Assembly: GCF_024580735.1 (NCBI RefSeq)
Contig: NZ_JANIJX010000011.1
Span: 1 to 64,000, forward strand
DNA from: Brevibacterium moorei
Lineage (GTDB): Bacteria > Actinomycetota > Actinomycetes > Actinomycetales > Brevibacteriaceae
Reading direction: 5' to 3'
Length of the DNA: 64,000 bases
Below are positions 35,649-38,485 of this stretch, piece after piece. Each line of letters opens with the position of its first letter. Within the stretch, counting starts at the first letter, position 1. A program made the position numbers and the translations under genes. A model generated the notes under the pieces. The model had not been told where the DNA came from, searched no databases, and worked only from the letters and a program-made list of their open reading frames with translations.

Positions 35649-35888
35649 TGGGGTCCTCTTCGGATCGACGGGGTCGCCGGGCACATGCGCAGCACGTGCT
35701 CTGACCCCGATTATTCACATGAGAGACCACCCGCGCCGTATACCGTGGGTACGCGCCGAGGTGTTCCCGCCGACCAGACTTCCCGGCACACCGGGGACAA
35801 CCTTAGCGGCTCATGTCGCCCAGCGCACATTCTGTGTTTCGCCGCGGCCCCTTGCCAGGTGCGCGGGGTCGTGATGTGATGGATGTGT

Positions 35889-35992
35889 GACACGGGGTAC
35901 CGCCCGTATGCGCCGGATGAAGATCGGGTGCGACGAGTGGCTGAGAAATACCCGTTGAACCTGATCCAGTTAGCACTGGCGAAGGGATTGTC
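35889..35992 (+). promoter_or_regulatory. TPP riboswitch (THI box)
   Basis: Clear thi-box conserved parts in order: the ACACGGGGT 5' arm, CTGAGA (35941-35946), ATACCCGT, and GAACCTGATCCAGTTAGCAC then TGGCGAAGGGA (35957-35987). P1 can close with GACA (35889-35892) and TGTC (35989-35992). It binds thiamine pyrophosphate and normally turns expression down when TPP is plentiful. It lies 123 bp before an SDR gene that is followed by a flavin monooxygenase, not beside a known thi synthesis gene. Confidence 0.93.
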
Positions 35993-35996
35993 CGGT

Positions 35997-36023
35997 GTTC
36001 ACCGCCCACCGTGGGCCGGTGAC
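35997..36023 (+). terminator. Expression-platform hairpin of the TPP riboswitch
   Basis: GTTCACCGCCCAC (35997-36009) and GTGGGCCGGTGAC (36011-36023) form a GC-rich stem directly after the aptamer. CCGGTG at its 5' edge adjoins the P1 strand, so alternative pairing is possible. No U-run follows, so it may be a Rho-dependent or actinobacterial-type terminator, or it may act on a later step. Confidence 0.55.
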
Positions 36024-36114
36024 AGTGTATGGTCGGCCGGCAGCAGGGTATCCACCCGCGGGCACGACCGGACGCGCACCGATCGCCTTCGCCTCCTATC
36101 GAGAGGCATGCATC

Positions 36115-36891
36115 ATGACATCAACCGTTCTTCCGCTCGCCGAGCAGATCGTCCTGGTCACCGGTGGGGCCCGCGGCCTGGGCGCGGCCGTGTCCAGGGC
36201 ATTCCTGGGCCAGGGCGCCCGCGTCGTCATCGACTATCGTGCTTCGCACGATGCCGCCGGGGCCCTGGCCCAGGAGTTCCCCGACCGGGCACTCGCGATC
36301 CAGGCGGACGTCCGGGACCGTGCCCAAGTCGATTCCCTTTTCGCCGAGGCATCCGCCACCTGGGGTGCCCCCGTCACCACGGTGGTCAATAACGCCCTGA
36401 TCGACTTCTCATTCAACGGTGATGCCCGAGCGAAGGCGGACCGGATCACGTACCCGGAACTCGCCGCGCAGTTCGCCGGTTCCGTTCAGGGCCCACTGAA
36501 TGTCATCCAGTCGGCGCTGCCCGGCATGACGCGGGCCGGTTTCGGGCGGGTCGTCAACATCGGGACCAATCTGTTCCAGAACCCTGTTGTGCCGTATCAC
36601 GACTACACCGCCGCCAAGGCGGCACTGCTGTCCCTGACCAGGACGTTCGCCGACGATCTGGGGCCCCGGGGGATTACCGTCAATATGGTCTCCGGTGGAC
36701 TCCTGCAGACCACCGATGCATCGGCGGCCACCCCGGAAGAGGTCTTCGCCGGGATCGCCGCGAGTACCCCGCTGCGCGCGGTCACAACGCCCGAACAGCT
36801 GGCCGACGCGGTGTTGTTCTTCGCCAGCCCCTGGGCGCGGGGCGTGACCGGACAGAATCTCATCGTGGACGGCGGCCTGGTCAAGGGGTGA
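36115..36891 (+). CDS. SDR oxidoreductase under TPP-riboswitch control
   Basis: 258 aa Rossmann short-chain dehydrogenase annotated in relatives as 3-oxoacyl-ACP reductase-like. Cofactor motif TGGARGLGAAV; active-site Tyr-Lys in YHDYTAAKAAL. Counting 13 back from that Tyr, the usual catalytic Ser is Thr (NIGTNLF), and the NNAG motif is NNAL, so this is a divergent subgroup. The segment NIGTNLFQNPVVPYHDY and the tail ASPWARGVTGQNLIVDGG are, from memory, shared with thiamine-regulated SDRs of Firmicutes (the predicted oarX group). GAGAGG precedes ATG 36115. It overlaps the monooxygenase by 4 bp. A role in thiamine precursor salvage or repair is inferred. Confidence 0.85.
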   Translation: MTSTVLPLAEQIVLVTGGARGLGAAVSRAFLGQGARVVIDYRASHDAAGALAQEFPDRALAIQADVRDRAQVDSLFAEASATWGAPVTTVVNNALIDFSFNGDARAKADRITYPELAAQFAGSVQGPLNVIQSALPGMTRAGFGRVVNIGTNLFQNPVVPYHDYTAAKAALLSLTRTFADDLGPRGITVNMVSGGLLQTTDASAATPEEVFAGIAASTPLRAVTTPEQLADAVLFFASPWARGVTGQNLIVDGGLVKG

Positions 36892-38222
36892 GGGACGTGA
36901 CGGTCAAGCAGGCCCATCTCAACCTGTTCATCCACGGTGTCGGCCACCACGCGGCCGCTTGGCGTGCACCGGATGCGCCAAGCGAACACCTCACCGATGT
37001 GGAGTACTACAAGGAACTGGCCAGGATCGCCGAACGCGGCAAACTGGACGCCGTGTTCTTCGCCGACGGACAGTCCCTCAGCGGGGACGCAGTGCAGGAC
37101 GGGCCCGGTTGGGCCCTCGAACCCCTCACTCTGCTGGCCGCCATGAGCCAGGCGACGGATCGTATCGGACTGGTCAGTACTGTGTCGGCCACGTTCTACA
37201 CGCCGTACCATGCGGCGCGGATGTTGGCCGGTCTGGACCATATTTCAGGAGGGCGCATCGGCTGGAACGTGGTGACCTCGATGTTCGATGCAGAAGCGCA
37301 GAACCACGGCATGCCGCACCTGCCGGATCATGCCACCCGTTACGCCAGGGCCGAAGAGTTCGTCGACGTCGTGTTGCGGCTGTTCGATTCCTGGCCGGCC
37401 GACTCCATCGTCGTCGAACGGGGAGAGGGGATTGGGGCTTCTGGAGTCCACCCCGGCCGGTATGTCGATGCCGCCATGCTCACCGAGCTCAACCACAGCG
37501 GTCGGAATTTCGCGGTGCGGGGCCCGCTCAACGTGCCGAGCCCTCCCCAGGGTCGGCCTGTGCTCTTCCAGGCCGGGGCCTCGGAACAGGGCCGCGACCT
37601 GGCCGCGCGCCGCGCGGAGGCAATATATGCGGTGGCCTACGACGCCGAGGCCGGACGTGCCTATCGTGGCGATGTGCGCCGTCGCATCGCCGCCGCCGGG
37701 CGCAATCCGGACGCAGTGGCGATTCTGCCCGGTTTGGTGACCTATGTGGGGTCGACCATGGAAGAGGCCCTGGCCAAACAGGCGGCACTCGACGGACTCC
37801 TCCCCGTGGAGAACTCGCTGCGGCAGCTCAGCGTGTTCATCGGACAGGACACCTCGGGATGGGACCTGGATGCACCCGTGCCGCCGCTGCCCCCGTTGGA
37901 GGAGTTCACGGGGCCCAAAGGCCGCTACGCCACGATTCTGCGCATCATCGCCACTCAACGGCCCACGGTGCGCCGGCTGCTGGGCCGGTTGGCGGCGGGT
38001 GGGGGCCATTGCACGATGGTGGGCACACCGGAGTCGATCGCCGACGAGATCGAGATGTGGCTCGATACCGGTGCCGCCGATGGGTTCAATCTGATGCCGC
38101 CCTCCCTGCCACAGGGTATCGAGGACTTCGTCGACCATGTCGTGCCCCAATTGCAGCGGCGCGGTAGATTCCGCACGGAATACGTGGGAAAGACCTTGAG
38201 AGCTCACCTGGGCCAGTCCTAA
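36888..38222 (+). CDS. NtaA/SnaA/DmoA-family FMN-dependent monooxygenase
   Basis: 444 aa luciferase-like TIM barrel. Family marks: GKLDAVFFADGQSL, ISGGRIGWNVVTSM, RYARAEEFVDVVLRLFDSW and GFNLMPPSLPQGIEDFVDHV. Enzymes of this branch use FMNH2 and O2 to cleave C-S or C-N bonds (dimethylsulfide, nitrilotriacetate, EDTA) and need a separate flavin reductase. The GTG start overlaps the SDR stop (GTGA), so the pair is coupled and falls under the same TPP riboswitch. Together they could oxidise a sulfur- or nitrogen-containing thiamine fragment such as a thiazole; this is inference. Confidence 0.87.
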   Translation: MRDVTVKQAHLNLFIHGVGHHAAAWRAPDAPSEHLTDVEYYKELARIAERGKLDAVFFADGQSLSGDAVQDGPGWALEPLTLLAAMSQATDRIGLVSTVSATFYTPYHAARMLAGLDHISGGRIGWNVVTSMFDAEAQNHGMPHLPDHATRYARAEEFVDVVLRLFDSWPADSIVVERGEGIGASGVHPGRYVDAAMLTELNHSGRNFAVRGPLNVPSPPQGRPVLFQAGASEQGRDLAARRAEAIYAVAYDAEAGRAYRGDVRRRIAAAGRNPDAVAILPGLVTYVGSTMEEALAKQAALDGLLPVENSLRQLSVFIGQDTSGWDLDAPVPPLPPLEEFTGPKGRYATILRIIATQRPTVRRLLGRLAAGGGHCTMVGTPESIADEIEMWLDTGAADGFNLMPPSLPQGIEDFVDHVVPQLQRRGRFRTEYVGKTLRAHLGQS

Positions 38223-38300
38223 GTCGTCCCGCACGGCCCAGCGACATCCGTAACCTGTCCGTCGCAAATCTTCGCTAGACTTGGCAGCAGCCGTCATGAC

Positions 38301-38485
38301 GCGCTCTGGGAGAGCCGCTGGACGAATCGGACCGATGATCGGACCAGTGGCGCCGTAGGTGCAATTCCCTCCCCGGGAAACTCTCAGGCCCAGTACCAGT
38401 GCGCGCAGGCAACTCTGGAGCGCACGCGCGCCCGCCTCGGACCCCTGGCCCGAGCAGCGCAAGCCGAGTGACAGAGCGGGGAGGA
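38301..38485 (+). promoter_or_regulatory. Glycine riboswitch
   Basis: The first aptamer shows GGGAGAGCC (38308-38316), GCGCCGTAGGTGCAA, and the signature CCCGGGAAACTCTCAGGCCC (38374-38391 region). GCGCTC (38301-38306) can close with GAGCGC (38418-38423). Downstream, GTGACAGAGCGGGGAGG (38469-38485) is the usual 3' end, but the GGAGAG/ACTCTCAG core of a second aptamer is not intact, so this looks like one aptamer with a ghost second. It senses glycine and should switch on gcvPTH. It lies in the 294-bp gap before gcvP. Confidence 0.88.

Follow-up and report, generated by a model that had tools for sequence, protein, structure and literature searches.

A thiamin pyrophosphate (TPP) leader in front of a short-chain dehydrogenase/reductase (SDR) gene has been described for cg0825 of Corynebacterium glutamicum, where the main text of PMC3890552 reports support from RNA-seq. 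Here, we describe an arrangement of this kind in a 64,000-nucleotide stretch of Brevibacterium moorei DNA (contig NZ_JANIJX010000011.1, positions 1 to 64,000; referred to as the window), in which a TPP riboswitch is followed by an SDR gene and by the gene for a luciferase-like monooxygenase (LLM) dependent on flavin mononucleotide (FMN). The likeness to cg0825 lies in the position of the SDR behind a TPP element and is one of arrangement, not of established orthology (PMC3890552); unlike at the window locus, a monooxygenase is not mentioned in the main text of that paper. Because a TPP leader before an SDR has been published for cg0825, what is new at the window locus concerns the LLM more than the SDR.

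Two further groups of systems are comparable in part. The thiMED salvage operons of Rhizobiaceae share with the window a TPP element and an SDR that is 66-68% identical (Rhizobium and Neorhizobium; 64% in Gemmobacter), but they carry thiM-thiE-thiD where the window has the LLM gene. YtnJ, nitrilotriacetate (NTA) monooxygenase, DszA, EDTA monooxygenase and riboflavin lyase belong, like the window LLM, to the NtaA/DmoA family by sequence (TIGR03860), whereas the window LLM falls in a TPP-linked clade of its own. Members of this family cleave C-N and C-S bonds. Comparative genomics reportedly predicted thiamin-repressed SDRs of this kind, to which the initial annotation of the locus gave the group name oarX; oarX together with thiamin gave no literature text match. 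No TPP-controlled LLM appeared in titles or abstracts among the matches listed, in a body of literature outside which most subscription journals fall. The main texts of two regulon papers contain neither "dehydrogenase" nor "monooxygenase" (PMC2211319) and neither "short-chain" nor "oxidoreductase" (PMC3766115).

Our best explanation overall, to which we give a probability of about 0.5, is that the locus is a TPP-repressed two-gene operon for the salvage of a thiamin precursor. That it is a TPP-controlled module of thiamin metabolism in the wider sense is highly probable.

The riboswitch and its gene pair

The initial annotation placed a thi-box, starting near 35889, before the SDR and monooxygenase genes, and named an Infernal search with the Rfam TPP model as a check. 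In the 64-kb window, cmscan matched RF00059 at 35914-36004 on the plus strand with 55.7 bits, above the curated gathering cut-off of 54.3, and a whole-genome search returned the same element at 35883-36005 with 56.5 bits. This cut-off is strict for the window genome, because two other TPP elements that fall below it (49.4 bits at G000:C24:257-389 and 48.3 bits at G000:C23:52123-52254) head the thiazole operon and a thiE-thiD-tenA operon. A second covariance model, R1, was built with the window excluded. It uses 20 leaders from other genomes, which precede related SDR genes or thiMED operons, and its structure was that given by RNAalifold, with 15 pairs and without P1. R1 produced a single match in the 64 kb, at 35886-35996 (71.7 bits, E = 1.2e-16). 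Nothing above 15.5 bits was found with it in L026 or in 45 control loci holding SDR or LLM homologues that are not TPP linked (two of these, L014 and L118, are one place counted twice).

Homology to relatives puts the start of the aptamer near 35889, where it had first been placed, and assigns the 5' strand of P1 and P2 to GACA-CGGG (35889-35896). The pairs read from the sequence are 35889-35892 with 35989-35992 for P1 and 35893-35896 with 35951-35954 for P2. The register chosen by cmscan is shifted; the cause probably is the long P3 arm that leaders from Brevibacterium have. Across 21 leaders, window included, 29 columns are invariant, and the motifs that we take to be the TPP ligand-binding core (CUGAGA, ACCC.U.GAACCUGA and GCG.AGG.A) are conserved. 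On these sequence criteria we regard the riboswitch as confirmed. A chance or decayed match in front of an operon unrelated to thiamin might be argued from the Rfam score, which exceeds the cut-off by just 1.4 bits. It is extremely improbable in view of the score and uniqueness of the R1 match and of the recurrence of the arrangement in all 13 intact relatives compared.

The SDR matched NF006393 with 420.5 bits (cut-off, 292) and the LLM matched TIGR03860 with 507 bits (cut-off, 279.7); the two reading frames overlap in a GTGA at 36888-36891. TPP-linked relatives from Actinomycetes, Brevibacterium and Nesterenkonia among them, share 68-80% identity with the SDR. Its TGxxxGxG and YxxxK motifs are present (Y-x3-K at 164-168; in one relative, S22, the final G is replaced by R). 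The Thr and NNAL that the initial annotation singled out as an unusual active site also are present, as Thr151 and NNAL at 92-95. Thr151 presumably sits at the usual position of the catalytic Ser, and the Ser of the N-S-Y-K tetrad is replaced by Thr in all six proteins aligned. Thr substitutes for the catalytic Ser in other SDRs. As marks of a thiamin function, Thr151 and NNAL were rejected: among 21 TPP-linked and 12 unlinked rows, no SDR position was invariant in the former yet rare in the latter. In the LLM, 17 positions set the TPP-linked rows apart, among them His140, which is common to YtnJ. YtnJ, which we take to be a C-S monooxygenase, is the profile-best of the solved relatives; an NTA monooxygenase, DszA and others also are among the best.

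Between the aptamer and the SDR start, a perfect complement of the aptamer 8-mer GGCGAAGG occurs in nine of the 13 leaders compared, and in the leaders aligned it adjoins the Shine-Dalgarno sequence (Table 1). Folding of the window leader gave this switching helix a probability of 0.72 when the RNA was free and 0 when the aptamer was forced. Forcing the aptamer also lowered the accessibility of the Shine-Dalgarno sequence in three of nine leaders, from 0.32 to 0.21 in the window, from 0.36 to 0.18 in CS2 and from 0.17 to 0.07 in S22. A scan for promoter- and terminator-like sites found none. Translational control of the SDR by the TPP leader is likely. At low TPP, the aptamer would be unfolded and its GGCGAAGG would pair with CCTTCGCC, upstream of the ribosome-binding site of the SDR, so that translation would proceed; with TPP bound, the aptamer would be locked and the ribosome-binding site masked.

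Recurrence of the arrangement in other genomes

The initial annotation named orthologous pairs that never occur downstream of thi-boxes as the result that would speak against it. The opposite was seen. We assembled an LLM tree of 28 rows, chosen by us and not at random, with 13 intact close relatives (window included) and 15 homologues. In all 13, the intact LLM gene is immediately preceded by an SDR gene, and the SDR gene by a TPP element, which exceeds the Rfam cut-off in 11. The 13 TPP-linked LLMs form one clade (support, 100/99) that spans three phyla; the tree program issued a long-branch warning, Mesobacillus included. Near the 15 outgroup homologues, no TPP element was found in the fetched loci, mostly with about 1.5 kb of flank. 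The loci L154, L155 and L115 to L118, in whose fetched stretches no TPP element occurs, encode NtaA/DmoA homologues of 41-48% identity; these delimit the TPP-linked clade.

A class-wide LLM search covered 394 genomes, with an E-value limit of 1e-140 and no more than four candidates scored per genome. Five genomes matched besides the window's own; in each of them, a TPP element (61.2-69.2 bits) precedes an SDR gene that lies immediately upstream of the LLM gene. The complete unit also occurs in Brevibacterium sp. CS2 (TPP element, 59.6 bits), in three Nesterenkonia genomes (61.5, 52.8 and 52.4 bits) and on plasmids of Rhodococcus sp. DMU1 (65.7 bits), Pseudochrobactrum sp. XF203 (70.0 bits) and Mesobacillus foraminis (82.0 bits). 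P. algeriensis has a TPP element too, at 87.5 bits with the window-free covariance model. On a plasmid of Exiguobacterium acetylicum, a TPP element (77.4 bits) and the SDR gene are followed by an LLM split over two frames, as it also is in genome G045, which has no BcmA. Beyond the 13 intact cases, five loci in all have kept the TPP element and the SDR and have a lost or broken LLM. Within the window's family, the TPP-linked SDR was found in 6 of 60 genomes.

Loss or breakage of the LLM gene has recurred while the SDR frame stayed open (L101, 3170-3198; L099, 6881-6964; L100, 6644-6754; L160, 5818-6877). The aligned LLM remnant is 37 residues long in G049 and 28 residues long in Brevibacterium aurantiacum and S22.

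Thiamin gene content and candidate chemistry

Searched against plasmids, the SDR matched 18 records, and the surroundings were inspected in 11. Among these, Neorhizobium, Gemmobacter and two Rhizobium records have the order TPP-thiM-thiE-thiD-SDR, with the SDR fourth; thiM of the two Rhizobium records, unannotated there, matches PF02110 with 257-261 bits. Two Caballeronia records have neither a TPP element nor an LLM gene. The thiMED-linked rows are united in a single clade of the SDR tree (99/99), and the LLM-linked rows require three changes. The SDR thus accompanies thiamin salvage genes whether or not the LLM is there; some of its relatives accompany neither. Because the SDR is the fourth gene of TPP-controlled thiMED operons and the TPP-SDR-LLM unit recurs across three phyla, we read the pair as a module for the salvage of a thiamin precursor.

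Alternatively, during thiamin starvation the pair might replace or relieve a TPP-dependent step, for example in the supply of keto acids or fatty-acid building blocks, and make no thiamin at all. The SDR family name, 3-oxoacyl-ACP reductase (FabG-like), is in keeping with such a bypass, as is an SDR paralogue present in 47 of the 60 family genomes (E up to 1e-45) and absent from the window's own. No TPP element was found at this paralogue in the 24 loci scanned of the 47 matches, and no thi gene was recognised beside it in the five of those 24 loci whose translations were examined. The place of the SDR within thiM-thiE-thiD operons fits precursor salvage better, and we consider a bypass improbable.

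The genome that contains the window (3.56 Mb) has TPP elements of its own before a thiO-like-thiS-thiG-thiF operon and before thiE-thiD-tenA; others precede an energy-coupling factor (ECF)-type transporter with two ABC_cobalt/YkoE-like proteins, one of them fused to ABC domains. ThiG is present, and neither ThiC nor ThiM was found in this genome. By gene content, it should make thiazole but not hydroxymethylpyrimidine (HMP). Some bacteria, this one included, should therefore make the thiazole half of thiamin only and need the pyrimidine half from outside.

Fourteen genomes with a TPP-linked SDR were surveyed as carriers (one is 89% complete, and three Nesterenkonia genomes have no stated completeness). 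ThiC is encoded in 5 and missing in 9, the window genome among the latter. ThiG was found at full score in 13, the exception being CS2. A clear ThiM (>150 bits) is present in six carriers and absent from eight; two Nesterenkonia matches (33-39 bits, over the cut-off, in frames of 506-513 residues) and a match in G248 below the cut-off were not counted. Because the carriers mostly make thiazole, often have no ThiM and in many cases have no ThiC, these observations favour a product on the pyrimidine side over thiazole or sulfur.

The initial annotation had proposed that the two enzymes act jointly in recovering thiazole, sulfur or another fragment of thiamin, and had suggested a survey for co-loss with thiazole synthesis genes. 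The link to thiamin salvage holds up, with TPP linkage in three phyla and the SDR in TPP-thiMED operons. Recovery of thiazole or sulfur is not supported by the ThiG, ThiM and ThiC counts. The thiazole version of the proposal would have the pair turn an oxidised or alkylated thiazole into hydroxyethylthiazole, whose kinase, ThiM, is encoded beside the SDR in Alphaproteobacteria; the kinship of the LLM with YtnJ points the same way. Besides the carrier counts, ThiM is present in all 4 genomes whose LLM is lost or broken versus 2 of the 10 whose LLM is intact (Fisher, 0.015), a hint only, since the genomes are related. The window genome, moreover, has ThiG and no ThiM, the reverse of the profile of a thiazole salvager (ThiM present, ThiG lost). 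We consider the thiazole route unlikely.

For the precursor salvage module, we tentatively favour pyrimidine-aldehyde chemistry as the most likely of the chemistries. The LLM, with FMNH2 and O2, would act on a pyrimidine-CH2-X compound and break a C-N (or C-S) bond in it by oxidation. Candidate substrates are damaged or modified thiamin and aminomethylpyrimidine, and the product would be a 5-formyl pyrimidine. This the SDR would reduce with NAD(P)H to HMP, which then would be used by ThiD and ThiE. The SDR alone might suffice where the aldehyde arises elsewhere, as in thiMED-SDR operons and LLM-less strains. We infer this chemistry from protein families and genome context. Somewhat more doubtful is the notion that it amounts to an undescribed oxidative route to HMP that uses neither ThiC nor TenA and occurs in three phyla, in many genomes without ThiC. 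If the salvage reading is true, the LLM monooxygenase family would gain a vitamin function. The conserved, riboswitch-marked enzyme pair represents a compact and testable gap in the thiamin salvage network.

Several observations weigh against a TPP-repressed salvage operon. Two of the 13 TPP elements, those of Nesterenkonia at 52.4 and 52.8 bits, lie under the Rfam cut-off. The complement of GGCGAAGG is reached by 2-6% of shuffles per single leader and is absent from 4 of the 13 leaders. With the aptamer unforced, the probability of the switching helix ranges from 0 to 0.76 across the nine leaders folded, and the fall in Shine-Dalgarno accessibility (0.10-0.18) is confined to three of the nine, the shift in the other six being at most 0.04. 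TenA, a hydrolytic route to HMP, already is encoded in the window genome. Finally, five carriers have ThiC, and ThiC is absent from 43 of the 60 family genomes anyway; because its absence is this common, it is no proof of a need for HMP. Loss of ThiC was rejected as a driver, as just 6 family genomes have the TPP-linked SDR and 5 of 14 carriers keep ThiC. A link between the TPP-linked SDR and ThiC loss is suggestive at most.

The neighbouring bacimethrin-type operon

In four Brevibacterium genomes (CS2, S22, B. aurantiacum ATCC 9175 and G049), the TPP-SDR locus directly follows a second TPP-switched operon. Its genes encode a NUDIX protein, a ThiD-like kinase, a hydroxymethyl-cytidine monophosphate (CMP) hydrolase, a CMP 5-hydroxymethylase (BcmA), a methyltransferase and a second NUDIX protein. 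Families and PDB matches were determined for the CS2 copy, in which the hydrolase matched 4jem (E = 3e-45) and the hydroxymethylase matched 5jnh (E = 3e-80); the other copies were located by tblastn. Judged by these matches, the second operon is a bacimethrin set, with thiaminase I absent from the six genes. The NUDIX genes might give self-protection. Bacimethrin is a thiamin antivitamin, and the operon ties B. aurantiacum, a cheese-rind species, to thiamin antivitamin chemistry. The bacimethrin operons of Clostridium botulinum and Paenibacillus, as described in parts of PMC12345177 and PMC5627462, have the same enzymes plus thiaminase I; unlike these systems, the window genome lacks BcmA, and the SDR-LLM pair lies outside the clusters covered in those parts. 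In Paenibacillus, such operons are described as having a Nudix gene and, putatively, a TPP riboswitch (PMC5627462).

This neighbourhood bears on a further alternative, detoxification. Here the LLM, together with the SDR, would break down damaged thiamin or a thiamin antivitamin, for example by oxidative O-demethylation of bacimethrin or 2'-methoxythiamin, and would protect the cell at low TPP. The adjacency in four genomes and the comparable riboswitch-Nudix operons of Paenibacillus are consistent with such a role. In three of the same four genomes, however, the LLM is reduced to its first 28-37 aligned residues. No bcm gene was found beside the unit in Nesterenkonia, other Actinomycete, Rhodococcus, Pseudochrobactrum or Mesobacillus loci (0.5-9 kb of flank), and no BcmA was found in the window genome. 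We therefore regard detoxification as fairly unlikely, and precursor salvage remains our preferred reading. A close BcmA (93-100%) occurs in 5 of the 60 family genomes, with one more copy of 29%; in genome G014, the operon is represented by its front half, and no SDR gene adjoins it. That SDR and LLM are an integral part of bacimethrin synthesis was rejected, as the LLM is gone from three of the four genomes and the unit occurs elsewhere without visible bcm genes.

Table 1. Positions of the leader elements and genes of the window locus and of the bacimethrin-type operon
Feature	Position	Strand	Basis or remark
TPP (THI-box) riboswitch aptamer, P1 to P1'	35889..35992	+	Rfam RF00059, model R1; ends by homology to 20 related leaders
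GGCGAAGG inside aptamer, putative switching strand	35978..35985	+	Complementary to 36086-36093; complement in 9/13 leaders
CCTTCGCC just 5' of ribosome-binding site	36086..36093	+	Possible pairing partner of 35978-35985; alternatively may fold toward the Shine-Dalgarno sequence
GAGAGG, Shine-Dalgarno-like, 8 nt before SDR ATG	36101..36106	+	Sequence; aligned in related leaders
SDR-family oxidoreductase, 258 aa (NF006393/PRK08642, "3-oxoacyl-ACP reductase")	36115..36891	+	Profile match
NtaA/DmoA-family FMN-dependent monooxygenase (LLM), 444 aa	36888..38222	+	TIGR03860; GTGA-coupled to SDR
Bacimethrin-type operon	L097 1273-5438 (CS2)		Also L098, L099 (B. aurantiacum ATCC 9175) and L100; front half in L114

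The window has two Rfam hits in all. The second is a glycine riboswitch at 38297-38408 (47.1 bits), which lies upstream of gcvP; the genes gcvT and gcvH and one for an L-serine dehydratase come next.

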